Assembly: GCA_028867615.1 (NCBI GenBank) | Contig: JAGWGC010000006.1 | Coordinates: 1-32,868 of the forward strand | DNA length: 32,868 nucleotides | Source of the DNA: Nitrososphaerota archaeon | GTDB lineage: Archaea; Thermoproteota; Nitrososphaeria; Nitrososphaerales; Nitrosopumilaceae | Reading direction: 5' to 3' | Shown here: positions 3,711-32,838 of the stretch, piece by piece | How the letters are laid out: each line of letters opens with the position of its first letter | Position numbering within the stretch: the first letter of the stretch is position 1 | Notes under the pieces: generated by a model | Told to the model about the DNA's origin: nothing | Database searches by the model: none | The model's input: the letters and a program-made list of their open reading frames with translations, nothing else | Program-made: the position numbers and the translations under genes

Positions 3711-5384
3711 ATGAAAATTACAGTAACAGTAATCAAAGCTGATGTTGGCGGAATCGGCGGACATACAAGACCAAGCGACGGTCTACTAAACGCCGTAAAA
3801 AATCTTGTAAAGCCACAAGTAAGAAAAGACGGTAAAGGACTCTTGATTGATTCCTATATTGGATATTGTGGAGATGACATACACATAGTTATGACCCACA
3901 CTAGGGGTGTTAATAATTCTCAAGTCCATGGACTAGCATGGCGTGCATTTGAGGCTGCAACTCGTGTAGCTAAAAGTGAGGGACTTTATGGCGCAGGTCA
4001 AGATTTGTTGAAGGATTCATTTTCTGGAAATGTAAAAGGCATGGGACCTGGCGTTGCCGAGATGACATTTGATGAAAGACCCAATGAAGCATTTACAATT
4101 TATGCTGCAGACAAGACGGAACCTGGAGCATTCAACTATCCATTCTACAGAATGTTTGTTGATGCCCTATCTAATACGGGTTTGATTGTGAACCAGAATT
4201 TGGCAAGAGGTGTTAGAATTTCAGTAATGGACGTAGAAAAGGGCAAAGTAGCTACATTGGAAATGTGGCAAGACAAACCGACATTAGAAGCAGCTCTGAT
4301 GTATCCAGGAAGATATGTCATATCTACTGTGACTACCAAGGATAATCAACCAATATTGGCAGCATCTACTGACAGACTGCACAATATTGCAGGAACCTAT
4401 GTTGGAAAAGACGACCCAATTTGCATAGTGCGAACCCAGAAAGATTTTCCGGCAACAGAAGAGGCAGGATCTGCATTTAACAATCCGCATCTAGTAGCAG
4501 GGAATACCAGAGGTAGTCACCATATGCCATTGATGCCAGTGAAAATTAATTCTCCAGCAAGCATCAACTATGCCATTCCAATAGTATCAGCACTTGTGTT
4601 TTCCATGCACAATGGAGTTTTGACAGGTCCAATAGACGGATTTGGAACTGAAGACTGGAATTATGTTAGAAACGTAGCAATGAGACGAGCTGTTGCAATT
4701 AGAAGTCAAGGGTTTGTTCATCCTGCAACTTTGGTTCCAGACGAATTGGAATACGGGGTGGGCTACAAGGCAAGAATGAGTGTCTTATGGAGCAAGATGA
4801 AACCAATTCCTGGATCGTCACAAAATGCAAAACTTGGACAAAAACAAAATCTTGGAAATAAACATGGTAACAGACCACAAGGACAACAACAAGGTCAAAG
4901 ACCGGGTCAGAAACCACAGCAGGGTAACAGACCACAACAAGGACAAAGACCACAAGGACAACAACAAGGTCAAAGACCGGGTCAGAAACCACAGCAGGGT
5001 AACAGACCACAACAAGGACAAAGACCACAAGGACAACAACAAGGTCAAAGACCGGGTCAGAAACCACAGCAGGGCAACAGACCACAACAAGGTCAAAGAC
5101 CACAAGGACAACAACAAGGTCAAAGACCGGGTCAGAAACCACAGCAGGGCAACAGACCACAACAACAAAAACAAGGACAACATTCACAACAAAAACAGCA
5201 ATCAAAACCACAGACAGCACCACCATCTGTTTCTGAAAAAACTGTAAAACCATCTACCGAAGTCAAAGTAAAGAAACCACGTGCACCACGAAAGAAGAAA
5301 ACTGAAACTGTTACAATAAAACCAGCAGAAAGCACAATTTCAACAACTGAGACACAAAAGACAGAGACTAGTACCTCATCCTAG
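3711..5384 (+). CDS. fbp: Fructose 1,6-bisphosphate aldolase/phosphatase with a long repetitive, basic C-terminal extension
   Basis: MKITVTVIKADVGGIGGHTRPS...DDIHIVMTHTRG, typical of archaeal bifunctional FBPA/P. The tail from about 4815 is Q/G/P/R/K-rich. Confidence 0.95.
   Translation: MKITVTVIKADVGGIGGHTRPSDGLLNAVKNLVKPQVRKDGKGLLIDSYIGYCGDDIHIVMTHTRGVNNSQVHGLAWRAFEAATRVAKSEGLYGAGQDLLKDSFSGNVKGMGPGVAEMTFDERPNEAFTIYAADKTEPGAFNYPFYRMFVDALSNTGLIVNQNLARGVRISVMDVEKGKVATLEMWQDKPTLEAALMYPGRYVISTVTTKDNQPILAASTDRLHNIAGTYVGKDDPICIVRTQKDFPATEEAGSAFNNPHLVAGNTRGSHHMPLMPVKINSPASINYAIPIVSALVFSMHNGVLTGPIDGFGTEDWNYVRNVAMRRAVAIRSQGFVHPATLVPDELEYGVGYKARMSVLWSKMKPIPGSSQNAKLGQKQNLGNKHGNRPQGQQQGQRPGQKPQQGNRPQQGQRPQGQQQGQRPGQKPQQGNRPQQGQRPQGQQQGQRPGQKPQQGNRPQQGQRPQGQQQGQRPGQKPQQGNRPQQQKQGQHSQQKQQSKPQTAPPSVSEKTVKPSTEVKVKKPRAPRKKKTETVTIKPAESTISTTETQKTETSTSS
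4872..5165 (+). repeat. In-frame 75-nt tandem repeat, about 3.9 copies (25-aa unit RPQGQQQGQRPGQKPQQGNRPQQGQ)
   Basis: Unit starts seen at 4872, 4947, 5022 and 5097; spacing exactly 75 nt with few substitutions. Confidence 0.95.
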
Positions 5385-22596: not shown

Positions 22597-25500
22597 ATGT
22601 CAAACGCAATAGAAGAAGTAACAACCACCATGCTACCAGCACTACTGGTGTCGGCAGCATATGATGGTCTGAAAAAATGTGCGGTGCTCAAGTTTTATGA
22701 GCCAAAATCTCAAACGCTAAAACTTTGGTTTGACAATACAGGGCATAAACCATATTGTTATTCAAAACTAGACCCAGAAGAACTAAAATTTTTGTCAAGT
22801 AGAACCGATGTATTAAAACTTGAAAGTGTCAAGCGGGAAGATTTGCTAAAAGACCGCATGATTGACATGACAAAAATTACAGTAACAGATCCACTTGCAA
22901 TTGGTGGCACCCAGACTGACAAGAGTATAAGGAACATCATGGAGACATGGGAGTCAGACATTAAATATTATGAAAACTATCTTTATGACAACTCGTTAAT
23001 TGTTGGCAGGTATTATACCATAGAAGACGGTAAACTCAAAGAGTATTCATATCCGATACCAGATGAGGTCCAGCTTGCACTAAAAGGACTGTTGTTTGAC
23101 AAGATAACAAACATTGGAATAATAGACACAAAGGGATTTCAAAATCACATCAGTGAATGGGCAAATCTTCTCAATCAACCTGTACCCAACATACGGAGAA
23201 TTACCTTTGATATCGAGGTAGAGTCTGAAACAGGAAGAATTCCTGATCCTAAAATTGCTGACAGAAAAATTACGGCGATAGGATTTTGTGCAAGTGATGA
23301 TTTCAAGACAGTTTTTGTCCTAAAGCGGGCAGGACTACAAATGGGAACTGACGAGCTTCCAAAGGATGTCAAGATAAGTTTCTATGAAGAAGATAAGGAG
23401 GCAGACATGTTAAGAGACGCATTCAAGATTTTGGAAAATTATCCATTTGTAATAACATTCAACGGAGATGAATTTGACATGCCTTTCATGTACAACAGGG
23501 CAGAAAGGCTGGGTGTTCCATTAAAGGAAATTCCATTGGTGATGATGCGTGATTCTGCAACTCTTAAAAAAGGCGTACATATTGACCTGTACAGAACATT
23601 TTCCAATCGTTCATTTCAAATCTATGCTTTTTCACACAAGTATAATGACTTTTCACTAAACACCATATGCGAAGGACTAATTGATGAATCCAAGACAGAA
23701 TACGAGGGAGAACTAGAAGATCTCTCTCTTTATGAATTGGGAAACTATTGTTTCAACGATTCAAGAATCACACAAAAACTTACAAGTTTTAACAATGATT
23801 TGTTGATGAATCTTCTTGTCGTCATAACAAGAATTGGACGCATGCCAATTGATGACATATCAAGAATGGGCGTATCTCAATGGATTCGAAGTCTGTTTTA
23901 TTATGAACATCGAAAGCACAATTATTTGATACCGCGAAGGGAAGAACTTGATCAAAAATCTGGTACTGCGTCAACAGAAGCTGTTATCAAAGACAAAAAG
24001 TATCGCGGAGGTCTAGTAGTAGAACCCACAGAAGGAATTCATTTCAATGTATCTGTAATGGACTTTGCAAGTCTGTATCCTAGCATAATCAAGGTGAGAA
24101 ACTTATCCTATGAGACAGTAAGATGCATCCATGATGAATGCAAAAAGAACATGATCCCAGGCACCACGCATTGGGTTTGTACCAAGAAAAATGGTCTGAC
24201 TGCCACATTAATTGGCTCGCTGAGGGACCTACGTGTAAACTATTACAAGAGCTTATCAAAAAACCCAAGCCTTTCTGCTGATCAAAGACAATTGTACACA
24301 GTAGCAAGTCAGGCGCTCAAGGTCATTTTGAACGCAAGCTATGGTGTAATGGGTGCAGAAATATTTCCACTATACTGCCTGCCGGTTGCCGAAGCAACTA
24401 CAGCAGTTGGGAGGTTTACAATTTTAGAAACAATTGAAAAATGTAAATCAGTTGGAATCGAGGTTTTATACGGAGACAGTGTACTTCCGGACACACCAAT
24501 CACAATTCGCAGAAAAGACGGAACAATTGATTTGATTCCAATAGAAACACTGATGCCAAAAACAGTAAGCAATACAAGATATGATAAGCTTGGAGATATT
24601 GAAGTACTGACAGAGAAAGGATTTACGAAAATAAAACATGTCTACCGGCACAAGGTAAAGAAGAAAGGATATCGAATTCTCACCAGAAAAGGATTTGTAG
24701 AATGTACTGAAGATCATAGCCTAGTCATAAATGGAAAAAGTGTAAAACCATCAGATCTAAAAGTGGGAGACAAGATTAATCAGGTTTCATTTAAAACAGA
24801 ATCCAGAATACATGTAAGCCCAGACCTAGGGTGGCTATTTGGTCTTTTTATTTCAAAAGGCACATGTAACACACACAGACATGAAAAGTGTATCAAATAT
24901 TCATGGAGAATTGTAAATCAAGACAAAAAGTTATTGCAAAAAGCACAAAAAATTATACACGAACATTTAGCTTTGGAAACAACCATCGAGGACATTCATA
25001 AAAGATCTTCCACATACGCATTGGTCCCAAAAGACAATCACAAACTATTTGTTGAGTATTTCAAGCTTTTTTGTTATCGTGATGACCACAAGGGAGTACC
25101 ACAACCCATATTGAATGCAAACAATGAGGCAAAGATGGCATTCATAAATGGAATGTCAGATAGAGACACCCATGCCAAGATAAATGGATTGACGATGCTT
25201 GATCAAATACACAAGACCGTTATTGCGGGAGTCATCGTCATGTTGGAACAATTAGGGCTAGAATACTCGCTACAAATAAGAAAAGACAAGCCAAGCGTAT
25301 GTAGACTCGAAATAATTAAAGATCAAAAAAATCGGAGAATAAAACAATCGGATATCATCGAAACAATAGAAAAATTTAGCATAAGTGGATATGTATATGA
25401 TTTGGAAACAAAGAATCATCATTTTTGTGGCGGATTAGGCAATGTCTTGCTACATAATACCGATTCATTATTTTTGAAAGCCCCATCGCAAGATCAGGTG

Positions 25501-26130
25501 CAAGGAGTGGTAGAATGGGCAAAAACAGAATTCGGAGTTGATTTGGATCTAGACAAGGAATATCGTTATGTAGTATTTAGTAAAAGAAAGAAAAACTATC
25601 TGGGAGTACAAAAAGATGGCAAGGTAGATGTCAAAGGTTTGACTGGAAAGAAATCACATACTCCACCATTTATTAGAAATCTGTTTTATGAAATACTTGG
25701 AATCTTGTCACAAGTACAAAACGAACAGGAGTTCTCCCAGTCCAAGACAAAAATTGGTGACATGATATCGGGTTATGCAAAAAAATTAAAGGCAAAGCAA
25801 ATTCCCCTTGTAGAACTTGCATTCAACGTAATGATAAGTAAAGCCCCCGCAGAATATGTCAAAACTATCCCTCAACACATCAGGGCTGCCAAACTGTTAG
25901 AACAGACAAGAGAGATAAAAAAAGGCGATATTATTTCATATGTCAAGATAATAAACAAACCAGGGGTGAAACCTACAGAAATGGCAAGGCCAGATGAGAT
26001 TGACACTCCAAAATACATGGAGTTTATGGAAAGTACATTTGACCAAATATTGTCTTCAATGGACTTGGACTTTGCAAGCTTGATTGGTGAACCAAAACAG
26101 ACTGGATTAGACCAATTTTTCTGGAAGTAA
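22597..26130 (+). CDS. polB: Family B DNA polymerase containing an intein
   Basis: FDIEVESETG (Exo I), DFASLYPSIIKVRNLSYE (motif A), KVILNASYGVMGAE (motif B), YGD|intein|TDSLFLKAP (motif C). Confidence 0.95.
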   Translation: MSNAIEEVTTTMLPALLVSAAYDGLKKCAVLKFYEPKSQTLKLWFDNTGHKPYCYSKLDPEELKFLSSRTDVLKLESVKREDLLKDRMIDMTKITVTDPLAIGGTQTDKSIRNIMETWESDIKYYENYLYDNSLIVGRYYTIEDGKLKEYSYPIPDEVQLALKGLLFDKITNIGIIDTKGFQNHISEWANLLNQPVPNIRRITFDIEVESETGRIPDPKIADRKITAIGFCASDDFKTVFVLKRAGLQMGTDELPKDVKISFYEEDKEADMLRDAFKILENYPFVITFNGDEFDMPFMYNRAERLGVPLKEIPLVMMRDSATLKKGVHIDLYRTFSNRSFQIYAFSHKYNDFSLNTICEGLIDESKTEYEGELEDLSLYELGNYCFNDSRITQKLTSFNNDLLMNLLVVITRIGRMPIDDISRMGVSQWIRSLFYYEHRKHNYLIPRREELDQKSGTASTEAVIKDKKYRGGLVVEPTEGIHFNVSVMDFASLYPSIIKVRNLSYETVRCIHDECKKNMIPGTTHWVCTKKNGLTATLIGSLRDLRVNYYKSLSKNPSLSADQRQLYTVASQALKVILNASYGVMGAEIFPLYCLPVAEATTAVGRFTILETIEKCKSVGIEVLYGDSVLPDTPITIRRKDGTIDLIPIETLMPKTVSNTRYDKLGDIEVLTEKGFTKIKHVYRHKVKKKGYRILTRKGFVECTEDHSLVINGKSVKPSDLKVGDKINQVSFKTESRIHVSPDLGWLFGLFISKGTCNTHRHEKCIKYSWRIVNQDKKLLQKAQKIIHEHLALETTIEDIHKRSSTYALVPKDNHKLFVEYFKLFCYRDDHKGVPQPILNANNEAKMAFINGMSDRDTHAKINGLTMLDQIHKTVIAGVIVMLEQLGLEYSLQIRKDKPSVCRLEIIKDQKNRRIKQSDIIETIEKFSISGYVYDLETKNHHFCGGLGNVLLHNTDSLFLKAPSQDQVQGVVEWAKTEFGVDLDLDKEYRYVVFSKRKKNYLGVQKDGKVDVKGLTGKKSHTPPFIRNLFYEILGILSQVQNEQEFSQSKTKIGDMISGYAKKLKAKQIPLVELAFNVMISKAPAEYVKTIPQHIRAAKLLEQTREIKKGDIISYVKIINKPGVKPTEMARPDEIDTPKYMEFMESTFDQILSSMDLDFASLIGEPKQTGLDQFFWK
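24478..25458 (+). mobile_element. Intein (327 aa) with degenerate DOD/LAGLIDADG domain at the PolB motif C site
   Basis: Starts SVLPDTPITIRRKDGTIDLIPIETL; block B ECTEDHSLVIN; end block GYVYDLETKNHHFCGGLGNVLLHN followed by extein T (TDSLF). Confidence 0.93.
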
Positions 26131-31213: not shown

Positions 31214-31429
31214 CTATATCCCAGTAATTAGATATCCGCGCTGACCAGTTTCAGCATCCACCATTGTTTTCATGAAATAGTCTGCTTTATCAATCACGGT
31301 AAAAGTATGCGATAACCAGTTTTCATTTTCAATCAGATTATTTATGCTAATAAACGATACACATGACATTGGCAATAGCATTCCAACAATCATCCAAGAA
31401 GTATTGAATTTATTTCGAACATCATGCAT
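31214..31429 (-). pseudogene. CHASE3-type sensor N-terminus, truncated (no HAMP/kinase)
   Basis: TM segment then SHTFTVIDKADYFMKTMVDAETGQRGYLITGI*; AETGQRGYLITG is the CHASE3 signature, followed at once by TAG. Confidence 0.7.
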
Positions 31430-31458: not shown

Positions 31459-32358
31459 TCATTTTGTACACACCACCTTGCTATTCTTGTCACCATCATA
31501 CAATCCATGTAATGCATCAATATCACAGGCAGAGATATACGGATAATCTGGAAGCATAGGATGCATAAGATCTTCCACAGCAGTAGAGTGTCCAAGCCCT
31601 AGAGCATGACCGAATTCATGTCTCATTATAGCCTCAAGTCTATCAGCATCAAGCTTGTTTGCCTTGAAGATAGTTATTTTAGACTTTAGGATTTGATTGC
31701 CATCTACAAGAGATTTGGTATATCCTGAATACCCATCAGGATTTACATCACTTGTCAGTATTATTTCAATATCTCCCACTCCATCGGGAGATCCATTTAT
31801 GTCAAATTTTTGCGGTATGTATAACGTGGTAGGCTTTTCAGATGCCTGCTCAGTAGCTCCTTCCCATCCCACATAATATGTAGAAGAAGTTCCCGGTGGA
31901 CCTTTACCTGTTTGTGAATCATCTATCGATACAACTTTAGTAGACAAGATTGCATCTTTCAGGGCATTTATCATGTCTTGTGGAACTTTTGCTTCATTAA
32001 CAACATGGACGTGAATCACTCTTCCATCTTCAATATTCCATGATACCCATGTATCTACAGTATCACCTTGTAGATTCTGGATTACATAATTTGAGTTGTA
32101 ATTCGACATATTGTGTGATATAGCTTTGTTCACAACTTGATTCTCATAGTAAGAATAGCCTACAAATCCTAATGAAACTACAACTATGATAACTGAAACC
32201 GATACATAGTGTCTTTTATGGACTCTTTTTTCAGTCTTTTCCCCATCATGTACTATCTCTTCAAGAATAATTTTTTCTTGCTCTAATTCTTTGGATTTTT
32301 GTGACTCATCAACTAGTTTTCTCTCTAGATCTTGTTTTAATTTACCCAGTTCATTCAT
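31459..32358 (-). CDS. Membrane-anchored matrixin-type (M10-like) metalloprotease with cytoplasmic coiled coil; open frame continues upstream to 32484
   Basis: Coiled coil, TM (YVSVSVIIVVVSLGFVGYSYY), zinc motif HEFGHALGLGH and Met-turn DLMHPM. Confidence 0.88.
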   Translation of the reverse strand: MNELGKLKQDLERKLVDESQKSKELEQEKIILEEIVHDGEKTEKRVHKRHYVSVSVIIVVVSLGFVGYSYYENQVVNKAISHNMSNYNSNYVIQNLQGDTVDTWVSWNIEDGRVIHVHVVNEAKVPQDMINALKDAILSTKVVSIDDSQTGKGPPGTSSTYYVGWEGATEQASEKPTTLYIPQKFDINGSPDGVGDIEIILTSDVNPDGYSGYTKSLVDGNQILKSKITIFKANKLDADRLEAIMRHEFGHALGLGHSTAVEDLMHPMLPDYPYISACDIDALHGLYDGDKNSKVVCTK

Positions 32359-32484
32359 TTGCGAGGATATTGAATCGTTGACTTCCTTTAGAATGATTTT
32401 TTCCTGCTCTAATTCTTTTATCTTATCACTTTCAAACGGCTTTCCATCTGCAGATGTATCATTTTTGTCTGAGCTAATTTTGAC

Positions 32485-32838
32485 TCAGGCTCCTATAGTT
32501 TTCATCAGAACCTCTAATTTTACAGGTTTTTTAAGGCAGGCGTGTGCCCCTTTTTTCATAAGCTTTTGAATGTCTTCATCGTTGATAGATGAGGCAGTAA
32601 ACAAGACTATTTTGTGTTTTCCCATTTTTCCGTTTTTATATAGATTATCTATTACATCCACTCCGGTAAACTCTGGCATTGCCAAATCCAGTAATATCAC
32701 ATCGAATTTTTCTTGTTCAATCAGAGTCAGCCCATTCCTTCCATCATTTGCAACAATACATTCATGTCCCTTACTTGTGAGATACTTGGACATCATTTCG
32801 GTGATAGATTCATTATCATCTATTAGTAAAACTTTCAT
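32485..32838 (-). CDS. Response regulator receiver domain protein
   Basis: MKVLLIDDNESITEMMSKYL...VILLDLAMPEFTG (phospho-Asp)...VLFTASS...LKKPV. Confidence 0.95.
   Translation of the reverse strand: MKVLLIDDNESITEMMSKYLTSKGHECIVANDGRNGLTLIEQEKFDVILLDLAMPEFTGVDVIDNLYKNGKMGKHKIVLFTASSINDEDIQKLMKKGAHACLKKPVKLEVLMKTIGA

Follow-up and report, generated by a model that had tools for sequence, protein, structure and literature searches.

A receiver-domain gene and a membrane matrixin-like protease gene in Nitrosotalea: evidence for two neighbouring genes and a probable non-canonical start beside the stop of the first

Near one end of the 32,868-nucleotide stretch of DNA analysed here (the window), from an archaeon whose named relatives are Candidatus Nitrosotalea, a receiver domain and a membrane metalloprotease share one reading frame that is split by a single stop codon. 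The receiver (REC) ORF, 117 aa at 32838-32485 (-), ends ...MKTIGA-TGA with its stop at 32487-32485; the frame reopens at 32484 and runs 341 codons to the protease stop at 31461-31459 (-). ATG, GTG and TTG are all absent from the first 42 codons (32484-32359), the earliest being the ATG at 32358, and KELEQEKIIL spans codons 23-32 and, 42 codons on, is repeated at codons 65-74. The original prediction had described the stop position, the open frame, the start-less codons and the repeat, all of which were borne out on re-reading, and had proposed from them a single REC-coil-TM-M10 polypeptide. Does the stop interrupt one protein, or does it end one gene beside another, and where would the second gene then start? 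The window belongs to a 77%-complete MAG, and just 30 bases separate the start of REC from the end of the contig. The features of the locus are as follows.

32485-32838, minus strand: single-domain response regulator (REC), 117 aa (PF00072, E = 8.6e-23)
32490-32494, minus strand: Shine-Dalgarno-like AGGAG in the final REC codons (dG about -6 against AUCACCUCCU)
32485-32487, minus strand: REC stop codon TGA (TGA, TAA or TAG in orthologues)
32476-32484, minus strand: probable protease start region, GTC 32484-32482, AAA, ATT 32478-32476 (orthologues have GTA, GTG, or CTG/TTG nearby)
32422-32484, minus strand: hydrophilic linker, codons 1-21 (length varies only in frame; pN/pS 0.53)
32359-32421, minus strand: first coiled-coil part, codons 22-42, with KELEQEKIIL copy 1 (pN/pS 0.11; E26, Q27 and E28 invariant)
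32209-32358, minus strand: second coiled-coil part, from the non-conserved ATG 32358, with KELEQEKIIL copy 2 (sequence and orthologues)
32146-32208, minus strand: single transmembrane (TM) helix, codons 93-113, with positive residues before it (hydrophobic in every orthologue)
31462-32145, minus strand: extracytoplasmic matrixin-like metalloprotease domain (PF00413, E = 4e-8)
31459-31461, minus strand: protease stop codon TGA (sequence)
31214-31429, minus strand: broken histidine kinase remnant, CHASE3 N-terminal part only, 71 aa (tblastn, PF05227)

An equivalent frame was found in 14 further loci of the genus, two of them within single-contig genomes, and the stretch ahead of ATG 32358 is conserved in all 14. 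Differences in linker length among the orthologues keep the frame, and no stop falls inside the linker. Pooled over 11 pairs, which overlap so that the values are descriptive, pN/pS is 0.53 for the linker (codons 2-21), 0.11 for coil codons 22-42, 0.23 for the remaining coil, 0.36 for the TM helix and 0.13 for the ectodomain; among the window, L006 and L007, the pre-ATG coil has 0-1 nonsynonymous against 3-6 synonymous changes. A linker that stays in frame without stops, followed by a coil of low pN/pS, argues that the upstream coil is translated. Judged by this conservation, the 42 codons ahead of ATG 32358 are real coding sequence, as had been supposed from the repeat.

This finding bears directly on an ordinary two-gene operon in which the protease starts at ATG 32358. 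The codon is common to the window, L006 and L007, but it is replaced by ATA in L008 and GTA in L009 and is otherwise absent through L020, and the coil before it is constrained even in the three loci that have it. In L010, L017 and L018 no canonical start codon is reached until the TM helix or its vicinity. Distance also argues against this start: termination-reinitiation is documented in archaea, and in Haloferax volcanii it was abolished at 22 nt (PMC6728339, PMC10666635), a range far exceeded by an ATG at +126 nt. Conservation and position thus rule out ATG 32358 as the sole start, although it could be the source of a minor short form, and we consider this version of the operon unlikely. The original prediction had included it as an alternative, of which the two genes stand and the start codon does not; it had also named a conserved ATG 32358 with unconserved codons upstream as the pattern that would speak against a single protein, and neither half of that pattern is seen.

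A second possibility is decay, in which the protease start was lost in the window's lineage and the gene is a pseudogene in the making. The histidine kinase downstream has already gone this way: its remnant aligns by tblastn at 85% identity with residues 8-74 of the kinase in L006 (PF05227, E = 9.5e-10), where intact copies in relatives have about 471 aa, and codon 1 of the protease frame is GTG, GTA or GTC among relatives. Yet the ectodomain pN/pS within the window, L006 and L007 is about 0.05-0.09, and at least two tree clusters with intact kinases lack canonical starts, which makes decay distinctly unlikely.

The stop codon itself is informative. Two single-contig genomes, G003 (1.97 Mb) and G002 (LN890280.1, Ca. 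Nitrosotalea devanaterra), share this arrangement, which rules out an assembly or sequencing error; an assembly error had been offered as one explanation. REC ends in TGA in the window, L006-L009 and L011-L014, in TAA in L010, L017, L018 and L020, and in TAG in L019. The protease is in the REC frame in ten of the fifteen loci and in another frame in five (L011-L014 and L034, the last a short contig, too short to reveal the REC domain itself), where the REC stop TGA overlaps a protease-frame CTG as CTGA. One REC-coil-TM-M10 polypeptide, made by stop readthrough in the in-frame loci and by frameshifting in the others, would suit the ten loci that keep the frame and the lack of a canonical start in most; however, the stop codon and the frame relation are not shared across orthologues as readthrough or recoding would have them, the five out-of-frame loci would instead require a -1 shift, and other genera have separate ATG starts. 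The varying stop and changing frame also rule out selenocysteine-type recoding or readthrough of TGA, the latter having been among the options first listed. A fused REC was sought in 122 homologous protease frames, the orthologue check that the original prediction had proposed, and none was found, the sole match scoring 13 bits. We regard a single polypeptide made in this way as highly improbable. A stop that is fixed in position while its codon and frame relation vary points to a terminator, not a recoding site; on this comparison of loci, REC and protease are two neighbouring genes and the REC stop is a genuine terminator.

The least probable alternative is a bulge-helix-bulge (BHB) mini-intron that carries the stop and is spliced out, fusing REC to the protease; splicing was tested because a predicted BHB mini-intron had been seen in carB of these archaea, and it would account for the varying stops, varying frames and missing starts, but a scan with carB as positive control (22/22 loci) found a frame-compatible motif in just 2/15 junctions, where the motifs are incidental, unrelated and at differing places, and this rules it out. 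Together with the varying stop and frame and the lack of fused homologues, this result leaves the single polypeptide originally proposed without support. In carB of Nitrosopumilaceae (L321-L350; own genome L322, G000:C199), an insert of 20-22 nt parts ...IGEAGE from FDYSGSQ in 30/30 inspected loci. In 22/22 scanned loci the insert has a BHB motif with a GGCG/CGTC helix and 3-nt bulges; its inner stem varies (GTCAC/GTGAC, GTCG/CGAC, GTAG/CTAC), and cutting at AA^A and AA^T restores GEFDYSG. The carB insert is predicted to be an archaeal pre-mRNA mini-intron, of which no earlier report was found in the open-access literature.

To return to two neighbouring genes, the start of the second has to be sought near the REC stop. 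Among 14 clade junctions, ATG occurs in none, GTG or TTG in 3 and neither in 11, which have CTG, GTA or GTC instead. Directly beside the stop stands GTC in the window, where GTC against GTA rests on a single assembled base, GTA in L006 and L007, and GTG in L008 and L009. L010, L017, L018 and L019 have stop-NNN-CTG and L020 has stop-ACT-TTG, which makes the codon in second place after the stop CTG in four loci and TTG in one, CTG being about 10% of Leu codons; in L011-L014 and L034 the CTG lies over the stop. The candidate starts lie 0-6 nt from the REC stop or overlap it by 4, each exact start codon being a candidate only. The window's ATT two codons on is also present in L006-L009 and most of the CTGA group, with ATC in L011. 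Outside the clade, in contrast, 34/34 REC-M10 pairs have ATG (27) or TTG (7) at -23 to +26 nt of the REC stop, covering all three frame relations; the difference from the clade (3/14) gives a Fisher value of 1.6e-8, which ignores shared descent. Loci of one genus are non-independent; the tree splits the clade loci into at least two clusters. In a paralogous pair of the same genome, the REC TAA is followed immediately by ATG.

A Shine-Dalgarno (SD)-like motif is found in the last REC codons of 15/15 loci, and the 16S 3' end GGATCACCTCCTT was read in G002 and G003 (located with RF01959). The window's AGGAG stands 5 nt ahead of codon 1 GTC and 11 nt ahead of ATT; members of the CTGA subgroup have almost no gap between SD and CTG. 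For GUC the SD spacing is better, but AUU is the closer match to AUG, with one mismatch against two. Because GUC and GUA are two positions off AUG and are very weak starts generally, the window's own start codon is left as a set of candidates. Upstream GTG/TTG in REC at -55 nt (L012-L014) and GTG in L034 were ruled out as starts because L011 has a stop between that site and the coil. A hairpin is predicted at 32465-32500, around the REC stop and the start candidates, in the window, L008, L009, L013, L014 and L034; as it is missing from the other loci, it is not used as an explanation. A search of the open-access literature for Nitrosotalea start codons found nothing relevant.

We put a probability of about 0.7 on a translationally coupled operon in which protease translation begins, next to the REC stop, at a non-canonical codon. 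REC translation would end at a true stop codon, and terminating ribosomes, aided by the SD-like AGGAG, would restart within a few nucleotides at the protease start. CUG would serve in nine loci, five of them with the CTGA overlap of ATGA type, and three would use UUG or GUG; for the window and its two closest relatives, GUC/GUA, or AUU two codons on, is proposed. Two proteins would result, at a ratio that is fixed and probably low. Termination-reinitiation pairs of archaea and bacteria (Huber et al. 2019, 2023) likewise have the second start at or overlapping the first stop and an SD-like motif in the upstream gene; their known starts are of ATGA/TGATG type, whereas here CTGA, stop-GTA, stop-GTC or stop-NNN-CTG is seen. 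The coding constraint, which extends to the linker beside the stop, agrees with the spacing of such pairs (a second start within about 20 nt), but the canonical start expected of them is absent in 11/14 loci. Subunits of complexes are over-represented among closely spaced gene pairs (PMC10666635), in line with joint action of REC and protease. A bolder version, in which ribosomes restart largely irrespective of the start codon (CUG, GUA, even GUC), position relative to the stop and SD sets the start, and the codon is tuned to keep a phosphorelay-controlled ectoprotease low, is possible but doubtful. The AUU start of bacterial infC is a non-AUG start, and it is similar as a near-cognate start that goes with low or regulated output; it differs in being bacterial and autoregulated, whereas the start proposed here is archaeal, lies beside an upstream stop and has no known autoregulatory link.

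How common such starts might be was surveyed in 664 conserved gene pairs of G003 (0.8 Mb) and G002 (1.6 Mb), with hits read by eye; others may have been missed. The apparently real genes without a canonical start were REC-M10, one membrane-protein gene and carB (intron); the remaining hits resemble leaders, antisense frames or decayed copies. At the membrane-protein gene (ALRDRLSDIKEKL..., L302-L312; own genome L303, G000:C170), one start position has CTG in four, TTG in four and ATG in two species, an exchange that makes CUG initiation credible at the REC-protease junction. If the proposal is true, comparative genomics would here make the case that archaea conserve initiation at CUG, perhaps also at weaker codons, in connection with reinitiation. 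Standard gene finders take ATG, GTG and TTG and would truncate or miss the cytoplasmic half of the protease in most Nitrosotalea; losing that half in annotation is losing the link to signalling.

The two proteins are recognizable in themselves. REC has the residues of a response regulator: the acidic pair, the phospho-acceptor Asp in VILLDLAMP, the Thr and the Lys (LKKPV). In the protease, HExxHxxGxxH lies at 31620-31588 and the Met-turn Met codon at 31566-31564 (-); the zinc ligands, this Met and two cysteines are invariant over 69 homologues, in keeping with the M10/metzincin zinc motif. An AF2 model of the ectodomain (69-sequence alignment) has a pLDDT of 91.7, and Foldseek matches it to MMP-1/-3/-7 with target-normalised TM up to 0.67 and prob 1.0, a metzincin fold; by profile and fold (PDB) it matches MMP catalytic domains and fragilysin. 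AF2 of the entire 341-residue frame was poor (mean pLDDT 43). The protease thus appears matrixin-like with a metzincin-like fold, and proteolytic activity is predicted. It resembles the matrixins (MEROPS M10, PF00413) in HExxHxxGxxH, Met-turn and MMP-like fold; it differs in its cytoplasmic N-terminal coil, TM anchor and genomic link to REC and histidine kinase, and a cysteine-switch propeptide is not seen.

That REC and the membrane M10 protease belong together is supported by their gene order: REC precedes the protease in 14 loci of the clade and in 34 beyond it. A histidine kinase (CHASE3-HisKA-HATPase or dCache-HisKA-HATPase), usually the third gene of the proposed operon, begins +1 to +122 nt after the protease in 13 relatives; L020 keeps a kinase fragment from the end opposite to that of the window, the ATPase end. 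A HisKA motif precedes the coil in 17/83 family members and was Pfam-confirmed in the three scanned, with E of 1e-9 to 1e-12 on sister proteases adjoining a REC gene. In L015, L021, L050, L053-L057 and others, HisKA without HATPase is fused ahead of the coil-TM-matrixin, with the REC gene adjacent. The kinase gene in relatives and the HisKA-protease fusions in sister lineages make a phosphorylation-controlled ectoprotease plausible in trans; it is in this form, not the fused one, that the idea survives from the original prediction. An extracytoplasmic signal would act on the kinase to give phosphorylated REC, which may act in trans on the cytoplasmic coil of the protease (the HisKA domain in sister proteins) and alter its extracytoplasmic activity; contact between REC and coil and the control of proteolysis are candidate steps. 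Since the window's kinase is broken, its REC would depend on some other phosphodonor. Two-component systems with a single-domain response regulator similarly have a histidine kinase and a REC with normal catalytic residues, whereas here a membrane ectoprotease seems to take the place of transcription or a motor as output, and some of the proteases bear HisKA. Nothing relevant on a matrixin with a response regulator in archaea was found in the open-access literature. If true, this would be a conserved archaeal module, a two-component system wired to a surface membrane matrixin, in acid-soil ammonia oxidisers.

Two further features of the window were noticed. From a reading of the ORF list, the Family B DNA polymerase frame at 22597-26130 (1177 aa) looks intein-interrupted between YGDS and NTDS. 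The frame at 3711-5384 encodes an enzyme-sized, otherwise ordinary-looking protein with tandem Q/G/P/R-rich C-terminal repeats (GQQQGQRPGQKPQQGNRPQQGQRP).
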